A DNA stretch of 64,000 nucleotides from Thermosynechococcus vestitus BP-1 (GTDB lineage: Bacteria > Cyanobacteriota > Cyanobacteriia > Thermosynechococcales > Thermosynechococcaceae), in the NCBI RefSeq assembly GCF_000011345.1, contig NC_004113.1:1054001-1118000 (forward strand). The letters are read 5' to 3'. Numbering within the stretch: position 1 is the stretch's first letter; each line of letters opens with the position of its first letter. The notes below the pieces were generated by a model. The model made no database searches, was not told the origin of the DNA, and worked only from the letters and a program-made list of their open reading frames with translations. Shown piece after piece: positions 1,563 to 16,185 of this stretch. A program made the position numbers and the translations under genes.

Positions 1563-4500
1563 TTAGACGCTGAAATACTTGGCGGTGGGATGGTAGCAGA
1601 TGATGGCTGTCGTGGATTGCTCAGGGTAGAGTTGTTCGCTTTCGTCCATGTACATCCCCATGCGATCGCTCTCAAGGAGTCGCAGTTGCGTATATTGGTC
1701 CTGCATATTGGGGCAGGCAGGATAACCAAAGCTATAGCGGGAGCCTTGGTAGCGCTGGGCAAGAATATCGCGAATGGACTCCGGATCAGGGGTGCAGCCC
1801 AACTCGCGGCGAATACGGGCATGACACCACTCGGCGAGGGCTTCGGCCGTTTGCACCGCCATCCCGTGGAAGTAGAGGTAATCACTGTATTGATTGGCGG
1901 CAAATAGCTCCTGCGCCACTTGGGTGGCAATTTCACCAACGGTGACGGCCTGCATGGGAAAGACATCAATGATGCCCGATTCCACAGGAGCAAAGAAGTC
2001 AGCAATACACAGACGACGGCCACCCTTTTGGCGGGGGAAGGTAAACTGGGCGATCGCTCGCTCAGGGACCCAGGCATCCTTATCCCCTAGGGGATCATAG
2101 ATATAGACAGTGTTGCCCTCACTTTGGCAGGGGAAGTAGCCATAAATCAGTTCAGGATGGAGCAGGTTTTCAGCAAGGATGCGCTGTTTCCACGCCTCAA
2201 GGATAGGGTAGACTTTCTCGGCAAGGAAGGCGTCGTAGGTGGCACGGTCTTGATCCTTGGGTTTACGAAACTGCCATTGACCTGCAATCAGGGCTTGGAG
2301 ATCCAGATAGGCAAAGACCTCAGAAAGTGGAATCTGATCCGGCTTGAGGTGACGAATGCCCCAGAAGGGGGGTGTGGGGCGGGGAATATCCACAGCAACG
2401 GCTTCAGAGCGGCGGGTATCCACCACTTCTGGCGTTTCAGGTTCAGGAACTGCGGTGGGTTCGAGGGCGATCGCCCTTGGGCTTGGGGTGGAGATCGTTG
2501 TACCATCCAAAAATCCTTGGCGATCGTCCCACTGACCTGCGGCCTTTGCACTCATTAGCCGATCCATAAAATGCAAATCGGCGAAGGCATCCTTGCCGTA
2601 GATCACTTGACCGTGGTAAGTGGACTGGCAATCCTCATAGACAAATTTGGGTGTGAGGGCAGCTCCCCCCAAAATTACGGGAACGGTAATGCCCCGCTCA
2701 TTAAAGACCTCGAGATTTTCCTTCATAAAGGCGGTGGATTTGACCAGGAGACCACTCATGGCAATGCAGTCGGCCTGATGCTCCTCATAGGCCTGGATGA
2801 TATTTTCCACGGGTTGCTTAATCCCCAAGTTAATCACGCGATAGCCGTTGTTGGTGAGGATAATATCCACCAAGTTTTTACCAATATCATGGACATCCCC
2901 CTTCACCGTAGCAATAACGACGGTGCCCTTGGCAGTGTCGCCAGTGGCGGATTTTTCCATAAAGGGTTCGAGGTAGGCCACAGCGGCCTTCATCGTTTCT
3001 GCCGACTGCAAAACAAAGGGAAGCTGCATCTGCCCAGAGGCAAAGAGTTCGCCCACCACCTTCATGCCGTCGAGCAGGAATGTATTGATAATTTCAAGGG
3101 GGGCATAGGTTTCAAGAGCTTGGGCCAGGGTGTCCTCGAGGCCAAGGCGATCGCCATCAATAATGTGGCGTTTGAGCCGCTCCTCAATGGGCAGGTTTTC
3201 CACTTGGGAGCGATTCTGTTTGGCGCTCTTGCCCTCAAATAGACGGGTCAGTTCCGCAAGGGGGTCATAGACACAGACGTCCCCCTCAAATCGCCGTCGG
3301 TCGTAGATGAGATCACGGCAGACCTGCTGCTGCTCTGGCTCAATTTTAGCCAAGGGCAGAATCTTAGCAGCACTGACGATGGCCGCATCCATGCCTGCTT
3401 GTATGGCCTCGTGGAGAAACATGGAGTTGAGGACTTGGCGGGCTGCTGGATTTAAGCCAAAGGAGATATTGGAAACCCCCAGCAGAATATGACAGCCGGG
3501 GAGTTCAGCGCGAATTCGCCGAATGGCCTCAATGGTTTCTCGACCATTGCCCCGATCCTCTTCAATCCCTGTGGAAATTGGCAGTGCTAGGGGGTCAAAG
3601 AAAATTTCCCAGGGGGGAATGCCGTAGTCAAGGGCTGCCCTATAGGCCCGTTGGGCAATGGCAAACTTTTTTTCAGCTGTTCGTGCCATCCCCTCTTCAT
3701 CAATGGTGCCGATGACCACGCCGGCGCCGTAGGTTTTTGCCAGTTCCAGGACCTTATAAAAGCGAGGTTCACCATCCTCAAAGTTCGTGGAGTTCAGCAA
3801 GCACTTGCCCCCGGCCACCTTCAGACCCGCTTCCATCTTTTGCCATTCAGTGGAGTCGAGCATCAGGGGCAGCGTTACGTTGGTTACCAGCCGCGATACC
3901 AACTCGCGCATATCCCGCACACCGTCGCGACCCACATAGTCCACGTTGACATCCAGGATGTGGGCACCTTCGCGCACTTGGGCACGGGCAAGGGCAACGA
4001 GACCATCCCAATCTTCGGCATTGAGGAGATCGCGGCATTTTTTGGAGCCACTGGCATTGAGTCGCTCACCAATGATCAGGAAAGAATTCTCTTGGTCATA
4101 GGGCTGAGGACTGTAGATGGAGGCGGCAGCGGGAATCCGTTGGGGCGATCGCGCCTTGGGGGTCAGGGTCGCTGCAATCTCCGCAAGAGCCGCAATATGA
4201 TCCGGGCGCGTGCCACAGCAGCCGCCAATCACTTGTACCCCAAAGTCTTCGACAAAGCGGGTCAGGGCCAGCCGCAATTCCATCGGCGTCAGTTTGTAGT
4301 GGGCATGACCACCGATGTTTTCCGGTAAGCCGGCATTGGGAATACAGGAAATGACAAAGGGGGAGTGTTGCGCAAGGTAGCGGATGTGCTCCGTCATCAA
4401 ATCGGGGCCGGTGGCGCAGTTGAGACCCAAAATATCAATGGGATAGGGTTCCAGAATCGTTAGGGCAGCGCCAATTTCCGAGCCAACCAGCATCGTGCCC

Positions 4501-8356: not shown

Positions 8357-9217
8357 GGGGGCATGTGGTGGCTGCAATTGCCGTTGACTGCCACTCGGAG
8401 GGCTCGGCGTCAGCTCAGGCGTGGGCGGACCTGCTGGGCTCGGTGTCGGCGTGATGATCGGTTGAGGGGTGGGTGTCGGTTCAGGCTTGGGTGGGGGGGT
8501 TTTCACTGCCAGTTGCAGCAGTTCCGGCACCGTGACAAAGCGATAACCTTTTTGTCGCAGGCGATGAATGAGGGTGGGGAGGGCTTTGCGGGTCGTGGCG
8601 CGATCGCCGCCGCCATCGTGGAGCAAAATAATACTACCCGGTTTCACTGCCTTGAGGGTGCGCTCAACAATTTCCGCTGCGGTGGTGTTGGGGCGGGTGT
8701 CGTGAGGATCCACCGACCACAGGATAATGGCGTAGTTTTTTGACTGCGCATAATCCACTAGCCCTGTGGTCAAATTGCCCCCCGGTGGCCGAAAAAGGCG
8801 GGTTTGCGCTTGGCTTTGCTTGGCAATCAGGGCAGAGGTGTTTTCAATTTCCTGCTTGGCAACTTTAGGGTCAACGGGTTTGTAGGGATGACTCCAACTA
8901 TGATTGCCAACGGCATGACCCGCTTTGACAATGTCAGCAATGACATCGGGGTACATGAGGGCGTGCTTGCCAAGGATAAAGAATGTGGCCTTGACCTCCT
9001 CCTGCTTGAGAATTTGCAGAACCTGGCGAGTTGAGGCTCCCCAAGGACCATCATCAAAGGTGAGGGCCACCACTTTTTCGGGCTGCAGCGGTTTGACCTG
9101 ATGGACCAACTGCCCCCAAAACTTTCTCGGACTCACAAAGCGTGGCCCATCCGCTGCCAGCGTTGCCGATGCTGCAAGCACGCTTAAGACCACCAACAGG
9201 AGCCATTGCCGTCCCAT
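8342..9217 (-). CDS. secreted NodB-type polysaccharide deacetylase
   Basis: The 291-residue product starts with a signal peptide or anchor (LLLVVLSVLAASATLAA). The NodB homology domain follows: ALTFDDGPW with the two catalytic-site Asp residues, HAVGNHSWSH with the metal-binding His pair, FRPPGG, and ILLHDGGGDRATT near the end. Enzymes of carbohydrate esterase family 4 remove N-acetyl groups from peptidoglycan or other polysaccharides in the periplasm. After the domain comes a tail of about 60 residues dominated by Pro, Thr and Ser, which could span or bind the wall. The gene converges on its unknown neighbour with overlapping ends. Confidence 0.9.
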   Translation of the reverse strand: MGRQWLLLVVLSVLAASATLAADGPRFVSPRKFWGQLVHQVKPLQPEKVVALTFDDGPWGASTRQVLQILKQEEVKATFFILGKHALMYPDVIADIVKAGHAVGNHSWSHPYKPVDPKVAKQEIENTSALIAKQSQAQTRLFRPPGGNLTTGLVDYAQSKNYAIILWSVDPHDTRPNTTAAEIVERTLKAVKPGSIILLHDGGGDRATTRKALPTLIHRLRQKGYRFVTVPELLQLAVKTPPPKPEPTPTPQPIITPTPSPAGPPTPELTPSPPSGSQRQLQPPHAPSLRP

Positions 9218-9241
9218 GGCTGCTCCTTAGAGAAGGGTGAC

Positions 9242-10129
9242 TTAGGGGGCGATCGCCGCCGGCTCCTTCAGCAGTGGAAACCCCAGAGCCTCCCGTTGTT
9301 GGACATAGGCTTGGGCAACCCGCCGGGCCAATCCGCGAATGCGACCAATGTAGCGCGTGCGCTCTGCCACCGAAATGACGCCGCGGGCATCCAGCAGGTT
9401 AAAGGTGTGGGAACACTTGAGCACATAATCCAAACTGGGCAGTACCAACTGCTTTTCTAGAAGCTGCTCCGCCTCCTGCTGGTAGAGACTAAAAAGCGTG
9501 AACAATCGTTCCGGGTCGGAGGCTTCAAAGTTGTAGGTGGATTGCTCAATTTCCCCTTGGAGATGGACATCGCCATAGGTGAGGGTAGAGTTCCATCGGA
9601 TACTGGCGATCGCATCCACCTCCTGGAGGTACATGGTCAACCGTTCTAGGCCGTAGGTAATTTCAATGGAGACCGGCCGACAATCCAGACCACCGCACTG
9701 CTGGAAGTAGGTAAACTGGGTCACTTCCATGCCATCTAGCCACACCTCCCAGCCTACCCCCCACGCGCCGACGGCAGCATCCTCCCAGTTGTCTTCGACA
9801 AAGCGAATGTCATGATCTTGGGGGCGAATGCCAAGGGCGCGCAGTGACTCCAAATAGATCTCTTGGATATTGTCGGGAGAGGGCTTAATCAGCACTTGGT
9901 ACTGGTAGTAGTACTGATAGCGGTTGGGATTCTCGCCATAGCGGCCATCCGCTGGTCGCCGACAGGGTTCGACATAGGCCACTGCCCAAGGTTCAGGGCC
10001 GAGGGCCCGCAAAAAGGTATGGGGGCTTTTGGTACCGGCGCCTTTTTCCACATCGTAGGGCTGAGCAATCAGGCATCCCTGAGCCGCCCAAAATTGGTGC
10101 AGTGTTGCAATAACGTCCTGAAAGTACAT
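9242..10129 (-). CDS. glyQ: glycyl-tRNA synthetase alpha subunit
   Basis: Catalytic subunit of the bacterial alpha2-beta2 glycyl-tRNA synthetase. The sequence begins [20 protein letters not shown], the usual start of the family, and contains [40 protein letters not shown] and [20 protein letters not shown]. The length of 295 residues is standard. The open frame extends upstream to 10243 inside cysH, but that part has no homology; the ATG at 10129 lies four bases after the cysH stop, so the two are probably cotranslated. The beta subunit gene is not in the window, which is common in cyanobacteria. Confidence 0.97.
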
Positions 10130-10133
10130 CGGC

Positions 10134-10874
10134 TTAGATGTGAATCCCGCACTCGGTTTTGCCCATGCCGCGCCAGCGACCGGCCCGTTCATCTTCCCCC
10201 TCGGCGATAGGGGTGGTGAGGGGCTCATCGCCAATGCTGGCATAGCCGCGATCGTGGAGGGGATTGTAAATCACCCCGTGCTCCATCACATAGGCCCAAG
10301 TTTGTTTCCGTGTCCAAGCAGCAAGGGGATTAATTTTCAGACGACCCTCTTTGTCCAGTTCCACATAGGGCATATTGGCACGGGTGAGCGCTTGATCGCG
10401 ACGCCGGCCGGTAATCCAAGCCACAGTATGCAGTTCTGCCAAGCCCCGTTGCAGCGGTTCAATTTTAGTGAGATGGTGAAACTGCTCAACATTGGTTTCC
10501 CAAAGTTTGTCGCCATAGCGGGCAGCAAAGGCTTCGCGGCTGTCAACATCAGGGATTTTGTAGGTGCGCAAATCCAGACTGTATTTTTCCTTGGCCTGCT
10601 GCACAAATGCTAGGGTCTCGGCAAAGTGATGGAGCGTGTCCAAAAAGAGAACGGGCACCGGTGGATTGGGGCGCAGATCACGGTACAGCAGATCTGTAAT
10701 CACCATGTCATCTACGTTAAAGGCACTGGTCTGCACCAGCCCCTGGGGAATTTCTGTGACGGCCCATGCCAAAATGTCACGGGGATGTGCCCCTTCAAAG
10801 CGTTGGTTGAGGGCATCGAGGTCAAAGCTTACGGAGGCAGCCATAGGCGGTGTTAGCATGGTTTTAGAAAACAT
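10134..10874 (-). CDS. cysH: phosphoadenosine phosphosulfate reductase
   Basis: Reduces PAPS to sulfite with thioredoxin, a step in sulfate assimilation after ATP sulfurylase, which is encoded at 26.3 kb. Family features visible are [33 protein letters not shown], the nucleotide-binding [15 protein letters not shown] and the C-terminal ECGIHI with the catalytic cysteine. The extra cysteine pairs that bind an iron-sulfur cluster in APS reductases are not seen, so PAPS is the likely substrate. The start may be 10874 or the ATG at 10859. glyQ follows after four bases. Confidence 0.94.
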
Positions 10875-11064
10875 CCTTTAGCTTACCAATAAAACCACAT
10901 CAACATTGCGCTCATCCCAACGGCAATTGATGAATGAAGACCACACCGCAGATAGGCCGCATTTGCCCTGATCCTATCCTGGCCAAGCAGCAGGCAACCC
11001 AGACGCCGCCCAAAAACCACCCCTGAAGCCCCCAGACAAAAGCAGTGCCAGTGTAGCGTTAACC

Positions 11065-14000
11065 ATGACCTCGCCCCTTTCCAGTGCGACCTTGAACCAA
11101 CTGACCCCATTGCTGGGTAGCCTAGCTCGGCTGGTCGCCCGCGGCTCACCCCTCAACAACCGGCAGTTGCAGACCCTCCTCCTGGGCGTTGATCTGGAAG
11201 AAGACCCCGCCGCCCTAGCGGAACTCCAGCGCTGGGGACAATTGCTGACACAACTGCACCAGAACCCCTCCGAGGACAACCGCCACGCCACCGTAGAAGC
11301 CTTAATGCTGCGCGGCCTAGGGGAAGCTGCGGTATTACTGGCCGTGGACACCGTTGCCGGCCGAGCCACCGAAACAGCCCCCCCCTCATCCCAAAGCCAA
11401 CGTCTGAGGGCAAGCGTGGCCAGGTTAGACCTAGGAATGCTTGCCCCCGGCCAGAGGGCAACAGCCGAGTTTGAAGTGACCGGGGGCCCTGGGCAAATCG
11501 TCGTCGAGAGCAGCCAAGTGCAGGTGAGCCCCCAACAGTTCGGAGCCGGGACCACCCGCATTCAGGTGGTAGTGAAGCCCCTGAGGTCTGGCGTCGTGTG
11601 GACACCGCTGCGGCTAGTGACAGCCAGGGAGACCCTAGAGGTGCCCCTAGTGGTGCAGTGGTCAGATTTCCAGACGGCACCGGCAGGCCTGGTGGTTGCC
11701 CCCGATGGCAGCGGTGACTTTCGCACGCTGGCAGAAGCAGTACAGAGCGTCTCAGCCGGCGCCACCCTCTACCTGAAGGCCGGCACACATCGCCTGGAGC
11801 ATCCCTTGACCATTGATAAAGCGCTCACACTGATCGGGGAGGGCATGGAAACCACCCGCATCGTTTGTGAGGGCGAAGGGTGGGTTGTGAAGTTTGCAGG
11901 GGAGGGGCTGTTCAGTGCCAGCGACATTGCCTTTGTGCACGAAGGCAGCGGCTGGGCCGATGTGGTTGAGGTGAATAGGGGTGAGATATCCTTTGTGCGC
12001 TGCCGCTTCAGCGGTGGCGTGCGGGATGTGGTCAATAAGCGCGGCGGGGATGGCCTGTGGCTAGGTGGAACCGTCACAGGACTGGTGAGCAACTGCCAGG
12101 CCACGGGAAATCAGTGGGTAGGCATCCGGGTCTGCGAGCAGGCGCAACCAACCCTGGAGGGCAACACCTGCCAGGAGAATAAGGGGAGCGGCATCGCCTA
12201 CTTTGGTAGGGCAGCAGGCATCGCCCGCCAGAACACCTGCAGCAATAACGAGTCCTGCGGCATCTATGTGCGCGAGCAGGCGCAGCCAACCCTGGAGGGC
12301 AACACCTGCAAGGAGAACAAGGAGTGCGGCATCGCCTACGTTGGCAGTGCAGGGGGCATCGCCCGCCAGAACACCTGCAGCAGCAATGGGGACCATGGCA
12401 TCTATGTGTGCTTGTACGCGCAACCAACCCTGGAGGGCAACACCTGCCAGGGGAACAACAAGTGCGGCATCGCCTACGTTGACAGTGCAGGGGGCGTGGC
12501 TCGCCAGAACACCTGCAGCGACAATGGGAAGCAGGGCATCTATGTCGACCAGCGAGCGCAACCAACCCTGGAGGGCAACACCTGCCAGGGGAACAACAAG
12601 TGCGGCATCGCCTACGTTGGCAGTGCAGGGGGCGTGGCTCGCCAGAATACCTGCAGCGACAATGGATGCGGCATTATTGTGGGCCAGCAAGCGCAGCCAA
12701 CCCTGGAGGGCAACACCTGCCAGGGGAACAAGTTGAACGGCATCGCCTACGTTGGCAGTACAGGGGGCATCGCCCGCCAGAACACCTGCAGCGACAATGA
12801 GTACCATGGCATCGAGTTGGGCGAGCAGGCACAACCAACCCTGGAGGGCAACACCTGCCAGGGGAACAAGAGGAGCGGCATCGCCTACGTTGACAGTGCA
12901 GCGGGCATCGCTCGCCAGAATACCTGCAACGACAATGGATGCGGCATTGTTGTGGGCGAGCAAGCGCAGCCAACCCTGGAGGGCAACACCTGCCAGGGGA
13001 ACAAGTTGAACGGCATCGCCTACGTTGGCAGTACAGGGGGCATAGCTCGCCAGAACACCTGCAGCAATAACGAGTCCTGCGGCATCTATGTGGGCGAGCA
13101 AGCGCAACCAACCCTGGAGGGCAACACCTGCCAGGGGAACACGTGGAGCGGCATCGCCTACGTTGGCAGTGCAGGGGGCATCGCCCGCCAGAATACCTGC
13201 AGCAATAACGAGTCCTGCGGCATCGATGTGGGCGAGCAGGCGCAACCAACCCTGGAGGGCAACACCTGCCAGGGGAACGAAGGCACCGGCATCGCCTACT
13301 TTGGCAGTACAGGGGGCATCGCTCGCCAGAACACCTGCAGTGGCAATGAGTTCGGCATTATTGTGGGCCAGCAAGCGCAGCCAACCCTGGAGGAGAACGC
13401 CTGCCAGGGGAACAAGGAGTGCGGCATCGCCTACGTTGACAGTGCAGGGGGCGTGGCTCGCCAGAACACCTGCAGCGGCAATGGGAAGCAAGGCATCTAT
13501 GTGGGCGAGCAGGCACAACCAACCCTAGAGGACAACACCTGCCAGGGGAACAAGCAGTGCGGCATCGCCTACCGTGAACGTGCATCAGGCATCGCTCGCC
13601 AGAATACCTGCAGCAATAACGAGTCCTGCGGCATTCTTGTGGAGGAGGAGGCGCAACCAACCCTGGAGGGCAACACCTGCCAGGGGAACGAAGACACCGG
13701 CATCGCCTACTTTGACAGTGCAGGGGGCGTGGCTCGCCAGAACACCTGCAGCGACAATGGGAAGCAGGGCATCTATGTCGACCAGCGAGCGCAACCAACC
13801 CTGGAGGGCAACACCTGCCAGGAGAACAAGGGAAGCGGCATCGTCTACGTTGGCAGTACAGGGGGCATCGCTCGCCAGAACACCTGCAGTGGCAATGAGT
13901 TCGGCATTATTGTGGGCCAGCAAGCGCAGCCAACCCTAGAGGAGAACGCCTGCCAGGGGAACAAGGAGTGCGGCATCGCCTACGTTGACAGTGCAGGGGG

Positions 14001-16185
14001 CGTGGCTCGCCAGAACACCTGCAGCGGCAATGGGGACCATGGCATCTATGTGGGCGAGCAGGCACAACCAACCCTGGAGGGCAACACCTGCCAGGGGAAC
14101 AACAAGTGCGGCATCGCCTACGTTGGCAGTGCAGGGGGCATCGCCCGCCAGAACACCTGCAGCAGCAATGGGGACCATGGCATCTATGTGGGCGAGCAGG
14201 CGCAGCCAACCCTGGAGGGCAACACCTGCCAGGGGAACAACAAGTGCGGCATCGCCTACGTTGACAGTGCAGGGGGCATCGCTCGCCAGAACACCTGCAG
14301 CGGCAATGAGTACCATGGCATCTATGTGGGCGAGCAGGCGCAACCAACCCTGGAGGGCAACACCTGCCAGGGGAACAAGGGGAGCGGCATCGCCTACTTT
14401 GACAGTGCAGCGGGCATCGCCCGCCAGAACACCTGCAGCGGCAATGAGCGCCATGGCATCTATGTCAGCGAGCAGGCGCAACCAACCCTGGAGGGCAACA
14501 CCTGCCAGGGGAACAAGGGGAGCGGCATCGCCTACTTTGACAGTGCAGCGGGCATCGCCCGCCAGAACACCTGCAGCGGCAATGAGGACTATGGCATCTA
14601 TGTCGTGCGCGCCCAGCCAACCCTGGAGGAGAACACCTGCCAGGGGAACAACAAGTGCGGCATCGCCTACCTCTCTACCGACTTTTTGAGAGATGTTGTT
14701 AGGGCACTTATCAACGACTTGCACAGTGCAGAGGGCATCGCTCGCCAGAACACCTGCAGCAATAACGAGTCCTGCGGCATTCTTGTGGAGGAGGAGGCGC
14801 AACCAACCCTGGAGGGCAACACCTGCCAGCGGAACAAGGAGAGCGGCATCGCCTACGGTGGCAGCCCAGGGGGCATCGCTCGCCAGAACACCTGCAGCAA
14901 TAACGAGTCCTGCGGCATTCTTGTGGAGGAGGATGCGCAACCAACCCTGGAGGGCAACACCTGCCAGGGGAACAAGGAGAGCGGCATCGCCTACGTTGGC
15001 AGTGCAGGGGGCGTGGCTCGCCAGAATACCTGCAGCGGCAATGAGTACAATGGCATCTATGTGGACTGGAAAGCGCAGCCAACCCTGGAGGGCAACACCT
15101 GCCAAGGGAACAAGAAGTGCGGCATCGCCTACTTTGGTAATGCAGGGGGCATCGCTCGCCAGAATACCTGCAGCGGCAATGAGAGGTATGGCATCGGTGT
15201 GGGCGAGCAGGCGCAGCCAACCCTGGAGGGCAACACCTGCCAGGGGAACAAGGGGAGCGGCATCGCCTACTTTGGTAATGCAGGGGGCATCGCTCGCCAG
15301 AATACCTGCAGCGGCAATGAGTACAATGGCATCGGTGTGGGCAAGCAAGCGCAGCCAACCCTGGAGGGCAACACCTGCCAGGGGAACAAGCAGTGCGGCA
15401 TCGTCTACGGTGACAGTACAGGGGGCATCGCTCGCCAGAATACCTGCAGCGGCAACGAGTACCATGGCATCCAGTTGGGCGAGCAAGCGCAGCCAACCCT
15501 AGAGGGCAACACCTGCCAGGGGAACAACTTGTGCGGCATCGCCTACTTTGACAGTGCAGCGGGCATCGCTCGCCAGAATACCTGCAGCGGTAATGGGGAC
15601 GATGGCATCTATGTGTGCTTGTACGCACAACCAACCCTGGAGGGCAACACCTGCCAAGGGAACAGGGACTGCGGCATCGCCTACGTTGGCAGTACAGGGG
15701 GCATCGCTCGCCAGAATACCTGCAGCGGCAATGAGTACCATGGCATCCAGTTGGGCGAGCAAGCACAGCCAACCCTGGAGGGCAACACCTGCCAGGGGAA
15801 CAAGGGGAGCGGCATCGACTACGTTGACAGTGCAGGGGGCATCGCTCGCCAGAACACCTGCAGCGGCAATGAGTATCATGGCATCCAGTTGGGCGAGCAG
15901 GCACAACCAACCCTGGAGGGCAACACCTGCCAGGGGAACAAGCAAAGCGGCATCGCCTACGTTGGCAGTGCAGGGGGCGTGGCTCGCCAGAACACCTGCA
16001 GCGGCAATGAGGGGTATGGCATCGGTGTGGGCGAGCAGGCACAACCAACCCTGGAGGGCAACACCTGCCAGGGGAACAACGATAGCGGCATCTACGTGGC
16101 CTTCGCTGCCCGGCCCAGGTTGGGGAACAACCGTTGCCAGGGGAACAGGGGGAAGGATGTGTTAGTTCAATATTTAATATTTTGA
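11065..16185 (+). CDS. giant repetitive right-handed beta-helix protein (about 29 units of 46 residues)
   Basis: A 1706-residue protein with four parts: a helical region (1-110), an Ig-like beta domain (about 112-200, AEFEVTGGPGQIVVES), a pectin-lyase-like start (about 205-356, VAPDGSGDFRTLAEAV), then about 29 tandem units to the C-terminus. A unit holds two beta-helix coils: AQPTLEGNTCQGN-xxx-GIAYVGSA and GGIARQNTCSGN-xxx-GIYVGEQ. Every coil carries an NTC triplet, which would stack as Asn and Cys ladders. Units 4, 6, 9 and 13 lack one residue; unit 19 has a 16-residue net insertion. No signal peptide or membrane segment is seen. Family members include carbohydrate enzymes and adhesins, but no catalytic site is evident; the function is unknown. 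It stands alone, divergent from cysH. Confidence 0.85.
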   Translation: MTSPLSSATLNQLTPLLGSLARLVARGSPLNNRQLQTLLLGVDLEEDPAALAELQRWGQLLTQLHQNPSEDNRHATVEALMLRGLGEAAVLLAVDTVAGRATETAPPSSQSQRLRASVARLDLGMLAPGQRATAEFEVTGGPGQIVVESSQVQVSPQQFGAGTTRIQVVVKPLRSGVVWTPLRLVTARETLEVPLVVQWSDFQTAPAGLVVAPDGSGDFRTLAEAVQSVSAGATLYLKAGTHRLEHPLTIDKALTLIGEGMETTRIVCEGEGWVVKFAGEGLFSASDIAFVHEGSGWADVVEVNRGEISFVRCRFSGGVRDVVNKRGGDGLWLGGTVTGLVSNCQATGNQWVGIRVCEQAQPTLEGNTCQENKGSGIAYFGRAAGIARQNTCSNNESCGIYVREQAQPTLEGNTCKENKECGIAYVGSAGGIARQNTCSSNGDHGIYVCLYAQPTLEGNTCQGNNKCGIAYVDSAGGVARQNTCSDNGKQGIYVDQRAQPTLEGNTCQGNNKCGIAYVGSAGGVARQNTCSDNGCGIIVGQQAQPTLEGNTCQGNKLNGIAYVGSTGGIARQNTCSDNEYHGIELGEQAQPTLEGNTCQGNKRSGIAYVDSAAGIARQNTCNDNGCGIVVGEQAQPTLEGNTCQGNKLNGIAYVGSTGGIARQNTCSNNESCGIYVGEQAQPTLEGNTCQGNTWSGIAYVGSAGGIARQNTCSNNESCGIDVGEQAQPTLEGNTCQGNEGTGIAYFGSTGGIARQNTCSGNEFGIIVGQQAQPTLEENACQGNKECGIAYVDSAGGVARQNTCSGNGKQGIYVGEQAQPTLEDNTCQGNKQCGIAYRERASGIARQNTCSNNESCGILVEEEAQPTLEGNTCQGNEDTGIAYFDSAGGVARQNTCSDNGKQGIYVDQRAQPTLEGNTCQENKGSGIVYVGSTGGIARQNTCSGNEFGIIVGQQAQPTLEENACQGNKECGIAYVDSAGGVARQNTCSGNGDHGIYVGEQAQPTLEGNTCQGNNKCGIAYVGSAGGIARQNTCSSNGDHGIYVGEQAQPTLEGNTCQGNNKCGIAYVDSAGGIARQNTCSGNEYHGIYVGEQAQPTLEGNTCQGNKGSGIAYFDSAAGIARQNTCSGNERHGIYVSEQAQPTLEGNTCQGNKGSGIAYFDSAAGIARQNTCSGNEDYGIYVVRAQPTLEENTCQGNNKCGIAYLSTDFLRDVVRALINDLHSAEGIARQNTCSNNESCGILVEEEAQPTLEGNTCQRNKESGIAYGGSPGGIARQNTCSNNESCGILVEEDAQPTLEGNTCQGNKESGIAYVGSAGGVARQNTCSGNEYNGIYVDWKAQPTLEGNTCQGNKKCGIAYFGNAGGIARQNTCSGNERYGIGVGEQAQPTLEGNTCQGNKGSGIAYFGNAGGIARQNTCSGNEYNGIGVGKQAQPTLEGNTCQGNKQCGIVYGDSTGGIARQNTCSGNEYHGIQLGEQAQPTLEGNTCQGNNLCGIAYFDSAAGIARQNTCSGNGDDGIYVCLYAQPTLEGNTCQGNRDCGIAYVGSTGGIARQNTCSGNEYHGIQLGEQAQPTLEGNTCQGNKGSGIDYVDSAGGIARQNTCSGNEYHGIQLGEQAQPTLEGNTCQGNKQSGIAYVGSAGGVARQNTCSGNEGYGIGVGEQAQPTLEGNTCQGNNDSGIYVAFAARPRLGNNRCQGNRGKDVLVQYLIF
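12135..16095 (+). repeat. coding tandem repeat array, period 138 bp (some units 135)
   Basis: Tandem units of 138 bp encode the two-coil motif of the beta-helix protein. Conserved stretches such as CAACCCTGGAGGGCAACACC recur in almost every unit, while short variable windows lie just before each GGCATC (Gly-Ile). Four units are 135 bp and one is about 186 bp. A block of roughly 180 bp (units 9-10, from 13301) recurs almost base for base at 13850 (units 13-14), exactly 549 bp or four units later. This indicates recent unequal exchange or gene conversion within the array. Confidence 0.95.

Follow-up and report, generated by a model that had tools for sequence, protein, structure and literature searches.

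A giant predicted beta-helix protein in Thermosynechococcus vestitus BP-1 with a paralogue in a TerY-P gene block: a candidate binding or adaptor subunit

The stretch of Thermosynechococcus vestitus BP-1 DNA analysed here (the window; 64,000 nucleotides) encodes P0001, a protein composed largely of a predicted right-handed beta-helix of 58 highly similar coils, in which the differences between units fall on a single face of the modelled rod. A shorter paralogue stands directly ahead of the three genes of a TerY-P triad elsewhere in the genome, and P0001 would accordingly be an enlarged second copy of a subunit of that system, otherwise made of a VWA protein, a PP2C phosphatase and a Ser/Thr kinase with a zinc ribbon. 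Membership of a TerY-P-linked system is judged probable. The complete chain of claims, by which P0001 would work in the cytosol as a binding or adaptor subunit attached to the TerY-P phospho-switch and present a diversifying face, is put at slightly below an even chance.

The coil array and its predicted fold

By sequence count, the triplet N-[TAR]-C occurs 58 times in P0001 between residues 367 and 1691, with a spacing of 23 residues in 51 instances, 22 residues in five and 39 residues in one, the single 39-residue gap being caused by a 16-residue insertion (Table 1). The 28 two-coil units ahead of the two final coils consist of 22 of 46 aa, five of 45 aa and one of 62 aa. The original prediction of about 29 units and 58 coils was thus correct to within the ends of the array, and the Asn and Cys ladders that it envisaged do run along the entire length, with 58 of the 85 cysteines of P0001 lying inside triplets. 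At the DNA level, a 138-bp tandem array was detected within the open reading frame at positions 12134–14670 (TRF score 3237, 18.5 copies, 85% matches), with further repeats to 16092, which is far beyond chance expectation.

Table 1. Features of P0001 and its upstream region (window positions)
Feature	Position	Strand	Details
Upstream region common to P0001 and its paralogue	10919..11064	+	144/147 aligned positions identical
P0001 open reading frame, giant beta-helix protein	11065..16185	+	1706 aa, open reading frame intact
N-terminal helical region, residues 1–105	11065..11379	+	No Pfam match; helices predicted at low confidence
Ig-like domain, about residues 113–200	11401..11664	+	Likely related to the Ig-like domain of beta-helix proteins adjoining TerY-P kinases in other bacteria
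Pectinesterase-like beta-helix start and irregular first coils, residues 204–359	11674..12141	+	
Repeat array, 28 two-coil units and two final coils	12142..16182	+	Each coil with N-x-C; variable positions confined to one face of the modelled rod
Net insertion of 16 residues	14671..14733	+	Turn between two strands; LSTDFLRDVVRALINDLHSAE replaces five residues of one unit

The parallel beta-helix repeat profile TIGR03804 matched 29 stretches of P0001 (973 bits against a cut-off of 19.45, E 6e-302) and the Pfam Beta_helix profile PF13229 matched 17 (888 bits against 25.9). Residues 1–686 were modelled with AlphaFold2 in single-sequence mode. Within the model, residues 350–686 form a solenoid stack with three short strands per coil and a pLDDT of mostly 80–94, and the pLDDT is below 50 for most of residues 1–300. 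The Foldseek matches of the model in the PDB are right-handed beta-helices, the alginate epimerase AlgG being first. Together, the profile matches, the model and the Foldseek matches upheld the right-handed beta-helix originally predicted, and residues 350–686 are assigned to this modelled fold. Because the units are near-identical, the same fold is expected for the array beyond residue 686.

The best solved-structure matches, AlgG, AlgE4 and pectinesterase, raise the reading that P0001 is a carbohydrate-active or carbohydrate-binding beta-helix, like the alginate epimerases and pectin enzymes. This is considered very improbable given that the scores fall below the curated cut-offs (AlgG 66.3 of 700 bits, NosD 232 of 300 bits), that the hydropathy profile of P0001 shows no export signal, and that the paralogue lies next to kinase and phosphatase genes. 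A simple Kyte–Doolittle scan of P0001 for a hydrophobic N-terminal or other export segment found none that was strong, the highest 19-residue mean being 1.46 at residue 80. The expected lack of a signal peptide was thereby supported, and P0001 is probably cytosolic.

The region upstream of the gene probably contains the promoter and ribosome-binding site; a search of it for the sigma-70 consensus gave no match.

The 23-residue coil, three strands per coil, Asn ladder and right-handed helix are common to P0001 and the parallel beta-helix repeat proteins of TIGR03804 and PF13229, for which AlgG is a solved relative. P0001 differs from these in its 58 very similar coils, the replacement of a core Ile by Cys in each coil, the lack of an export signal and the restriction of variation to one face of the model. 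The units being standard parallel beta-helix repeats (29 TIGR03804 matches), the proposal that no protein with this unit had been described fails at the level of the family. In a set of 291 cyanobacterial genomes, the exact NTC version was nonetheless confined to this one. The matches ranking next were 37–52% identical and came from four genomes, in one of which the match lies in an exported-looking protein without the ladder. Within the taxonomic family of the organism, a P0001-type protein is present in one of 29 genomes, apart from two weakly similar genes of another Thermosynechococcus species (G020). No description of the combination seen in P0001, or of its size, was found in the literature, the repeat family being standard and the triad of the paralogue known; the founding TerY-P survey, reportedly that of Anantharaman et al. 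2012, might already list the linkage.

Two other origins were considered and rejected. The pentapeptide-repeat family is abundant in the genome, yet none of its 74 matches falls within the P0001 reading frame. A phage tail fibre or spike would fit in that the fold matches viral beta-helices in general, but the unit, searched at pattern level, is absent from a viral contig collection and the neighbours are housekeeping genes. A separate architecture was seen in a probably exported protein of another genome (G072, L084:6425-9034), which has N-terminal beta-helix coils, a middle region and a C-terminal caspase-like domain with HG and DSCFSG motifs recognized by eye.

The paralogue, its TerY-P triad and related loci

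The paralogue of P0001 (812 aa) starts at G000:C1:995038, about 70 kb upstream of the window copy. Ahead of the array, the two genes differ at 22 of 1071 bases (98% DNA identity) and at three of the 147 upstream bases. The arrays themselves have about 85–90% aligned identity, are not collinear and are of different length, with 58 coils in P0001 and about 20 in the paralogue. From the lower identity and unequal lengths, it follows that the array changes much faster than the remainder of the gene.

A VWA gene, a PP2C gene and a kinase/zinc-ribbon gene begin 100 bp after the end of the paralogue, all on the same strand. The VWA protein matches PF00092 above the cut-off and carries the DxSxS motif as DTSSS; a search of it for a TerY_C domain found none. 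The PP2C-like phosphatase matches PF13672 with 85.8 bits against 24, and the Ser/Thr kinase just passes the Pkinase cut-off (31.8 against 31.7 bits). The zinc ribbon of the kinase is formed by C319/C322 and C340/C343, with the CxxC...CPFC pattern conserved in TerY-P kinases elsewhere, and the kinase aligns at 32–35% with TerY-P kinases of other members of the phylum. Among the 29 family genomes, the kinase is found only in this one. The TerY-P triad is described in PMC11090510 as a VWA protein, a PP2C phosphatase and a kinase with a zinc ribbon, associated with tellurite resistance and restriction systems; these modules are linked there to defence systems and stress, and related modules act in phage defence. 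In the paralogue locus, the three triad genes come immediately after the paralogue and share its orientation, and the beta-helix gene is an extra part that the TerY-P passages of PMC11090510 do not name. P0001 itself is located elsewhere, away from the triad.

The paralogue and the three triad genes form a single 6,420-bp block (L024:9609-16028; G000:C1:994608-1001027). Two sister species lack this block in its entirety, their flanking genes being contiguous. The comparison of these genomes indicates that paralogue and triad were gained or lost as one block. Only three Beta_helix genes are present in the genome, so chance adjacency of one to the triad is unlikely (estimated at roughly 0.002). 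The third of them lies at G000:C1:102278-102799 in a 539-codon frame. Both borders of the block carry similar sequences around the HIP1 octamer GCGATCGC, namely CTGCCCGTTGTGGCGATCGCGCC and TTGCCCCTGGTGGCGATCGCCC, and these may mark the recombination site of its gain or loss. Elsewhere in the same region, L024:2224-3549 is an insertion relative to the sister species and includes a TnpB/OrfB-like gene on the minus strand (2267-3439).

The block might also be a passenger, a genomic island in which chance united beta-helix gene and triad and the protein serves an unrelated function or none. A single acquisition in one species, and border sequences suggestive of recombination, would fit such an island. 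It is nonetheless held to be quite unlikely, as proteins with a similar pair of domains are found repeatedly next to TerY-P kinases in other bacteria and the second copy retains an open frame of 1706 codons. Assignment to a known defence system was rejected: a PADLOC search gave only a chance JAB match across P0001, P0003 and P0004, and for P0005 no more than weak generic kinase matches.

In two other cyanobacterial TerY-P loci, one from Spirulina sp. CS-785/01 (G142) and one from a second genome (G256), the kinase adjoins a protein consisting of a short beta-helix and an Ig-like domain. A scan of a genome collection of 84,980 species with that protein recovered seven loci, in Symploca (two), Nostoc KVJ20, a Desulfobacteraceae MAG, Spirulina and Hormoscilla (two). 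A kinase, or part of one at one Hormoscilla locus, lies directly upstream of the beta-helix/Ig gene in six of these seven and also in G256, which gives seven of eight. AlphaFold2 models built from five sequences showed a small beta-helix at residues 96–196 and an Ig-like sandwich at residues 210–292, with a pLDDT by blocks of about 76–94 except for one loop. In Foldseek, the sandwich groups with HYDIN/PapD-like and titin Ig domains. The proteins of Symploca, Nostoc, Spirulina and the Desulfobacteraceae MAG have the same two domain types and the same kind of neighbours as the P0001 family but, unlike P0001, place a short beta-helix ahead of the Ig domain, end in a disordered tail and contain no repeat array.

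When the Ig region of P0001 was compared with the Ig family beside TerY-P kinases, hhalign gave a score of 28.5, against a best of 20.6 among 300 shuffles and 20.8 among 100 control windows, with an hhalign probability of about 20%. The two Ig regions are likely related, the relation being weak in sequence and the domain order reversed. The helical and Ig-like N-terminal parts of the original prediction were in this way supported, the latter through profile comparison with an Ig-like domain modelled by AlphaFold2 in the relatives.

Two further observations concern the short module. In both Hormoscilla genomes (L055 and L056) pieces of the beta-helix/Ig gene are spread across more than 1 kb, and the kinase match is limited to the C-terminal part in one genome and was not seen in the other; the system therefore seems to be decaying there. 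In two other cyanobacteria, large proteins containing a helicase-like P-loop region (GPPGTGKT) begin with the module at their N-terminus (L060:1078-3195 and L061:1135-3258; G342 and G084), which looks like a reusable targeting module.

One-sided variation, the cysteine ladder and candidate roles

Variation was tabulated over 30 full-length units from P0001 and the paralogue, with faces assigned from the AlphaFold2-predicted strands and exposure deduced from strand alternation. Strands a and b and the a–b turn show hardly any variation, even at side chains expected to point outward. Strong variation is found in the b–c turn, at the outward positions of strand c and in the turn that follows; in unit numbering, the variable positions are 14–16, 19, 21–22, 37–39, 42 and 44–45. 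As placed on the predicted strands, the positions that differ between units all lie on one face of the rod, and positions 4, 6, 28–30, 32 and 34, expected to be exposed on the other two faces, are invariant.

A tandem pair of beta-helix proteins with a helical N-terminus is present in G020 (L025:5119-7905 and 8646-11021). These are 25–26% identical to P0001 over the whole alignment, and a search of 146 genomes for their N-terminal helical domain found one weak relative. The G020 array varies at the same positions as that of P0001 (Spearman 0.69), the sole other shift with a similar value being one coil, or 23 residues. To avoid selection and measurement on the same data, positions were cross-chosen as variable in one array and measured in the other. 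At these positions, piN/piS was 1.80 (bootstrap 1.38–2.58) and 2.24 (1.67–3.40), against 0.29 and 0.48 at the remaining positions; as the units depend on one another, and gene conversion probably moves blocks between them, the ratio compares units within one array and is neither a standard selection test nor a test between alleles. The same pattern would be expected of a binding face subject to diversifying pressure. A search for a TerY-P kinase in the G020 genome did not find one, so variation of a beta-helix does not require the triad.

Every one of the 58 P0001 coils contains the ladder Cys, and no replacement occurs in the 30 tabulated full-length units. In the G020 array, which has a 47-residue unit, Ile occupies the place of the P0001 NTC Cys (position 10) in every unit, and one Cys per coil is found instead at the place of the Asn ladder (positions 8 and 31, against 10 and 33 in P0001). 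Because relatives have Ile at the same place, the NTC Cys is probably core-facing and buried. Free cysteines in the cytosol, as originally suggested, are possible and carry little information on function; accessible thiols are not needed to explain the array, and a Cys in each coil of two different arrays is still noteworthy. One proposal would make the ladder a metal, metalloid or redox device, its long stack of one thiol per coil binding or buffering soft metals or reacting with oxidants and the TerY-P switch reading the output. The unbroken conservation of the Cys and its separate occurrence at a neighbouring ladder position in G020 speak for such a device, as do the link of TerY-P to tellurite resistance and the metal sensing hypothesized in PMC11090510. 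It is regarded as unlikely, since the Cys replaces a core Ile and is probably buried, the variable face is left unexplained, and the five-residue Cys ladder in the solved beta-helix of the fucoidan lyase FdlA was proposed to be structural, stabilizing the helix (PMC9410043).

A serious rival is that the array is merely a long and stable rod or spacer, with units multiplied and homogenized by unequal recombination and exposed turn residues free to vary. Exact repeats of up to 119 bp occur within the array, most variable sites lie in turns or at outward positions, and the paralogues are very unequal in length. Neutral turns would not account for the invariance of the presumably exposed positions on the other two faces, and free drift predicts about equal piN and piS rather than the excess of piN seen at cross-chosen positions in both arrays; the linkage to a signalling triad likewise speaks against this rival. 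This reading is possible but doubtful.

In its strongest form, put forward just as tentatively, the role proposed for P0001 is that of an intracellular recognition protein. Its binding surface would be the one diversified face of a giant beta-helix, produced by expansion and shuffling of two-coil units, and its output would be the TerY-P kinase/phosphatase switch, making it a beta-helix counterpart of leucine-rich-repeat receptors. In the broader reading, put at slightly below an even chance, the two invariant faces and the Asn and Cys ladders would serve as scaffold, and the variable face may bind changing partners, whether proteins, nucleic acid or foreign molecules. Phosphorylation by the triad could control binding or assembly of P0001 through its N-terminal part, and P0001, whose gene is not next to the triad, would be an enlarged version working in trans. 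Against this broader reading stand the distance of P0001 from the triad, the weak Ig relation with its reversed domain order, and the short, unrepeated beta-helix of the other family.

An intracellular right-handed beta-helix used for substrate recognition has been described in the CASH-domain protein FBXO11, whose beta-helix was modelled on AlgG (PMC8825234). The likeness between P0001 and such CASH-domain proteins is one of fold and possible use only, with no F-box or UBR part seen in P0001. To our knowledge, the coils of FBXO11 are not a near-identical array.

Most known right-handed beta-helices belong to exported sugar enzymes, adhesins or phage spikes. If the proposed role holds, a cytosolic beta-helix of about 58 coils, varied on one face and gained together with a kinase/phosphatase/VWA set, would be a candidate sensing or targeting part for TerY-P systems. 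A further repeat fold would also join the few scaffolds that bacteria may use in diversified form for recognition.
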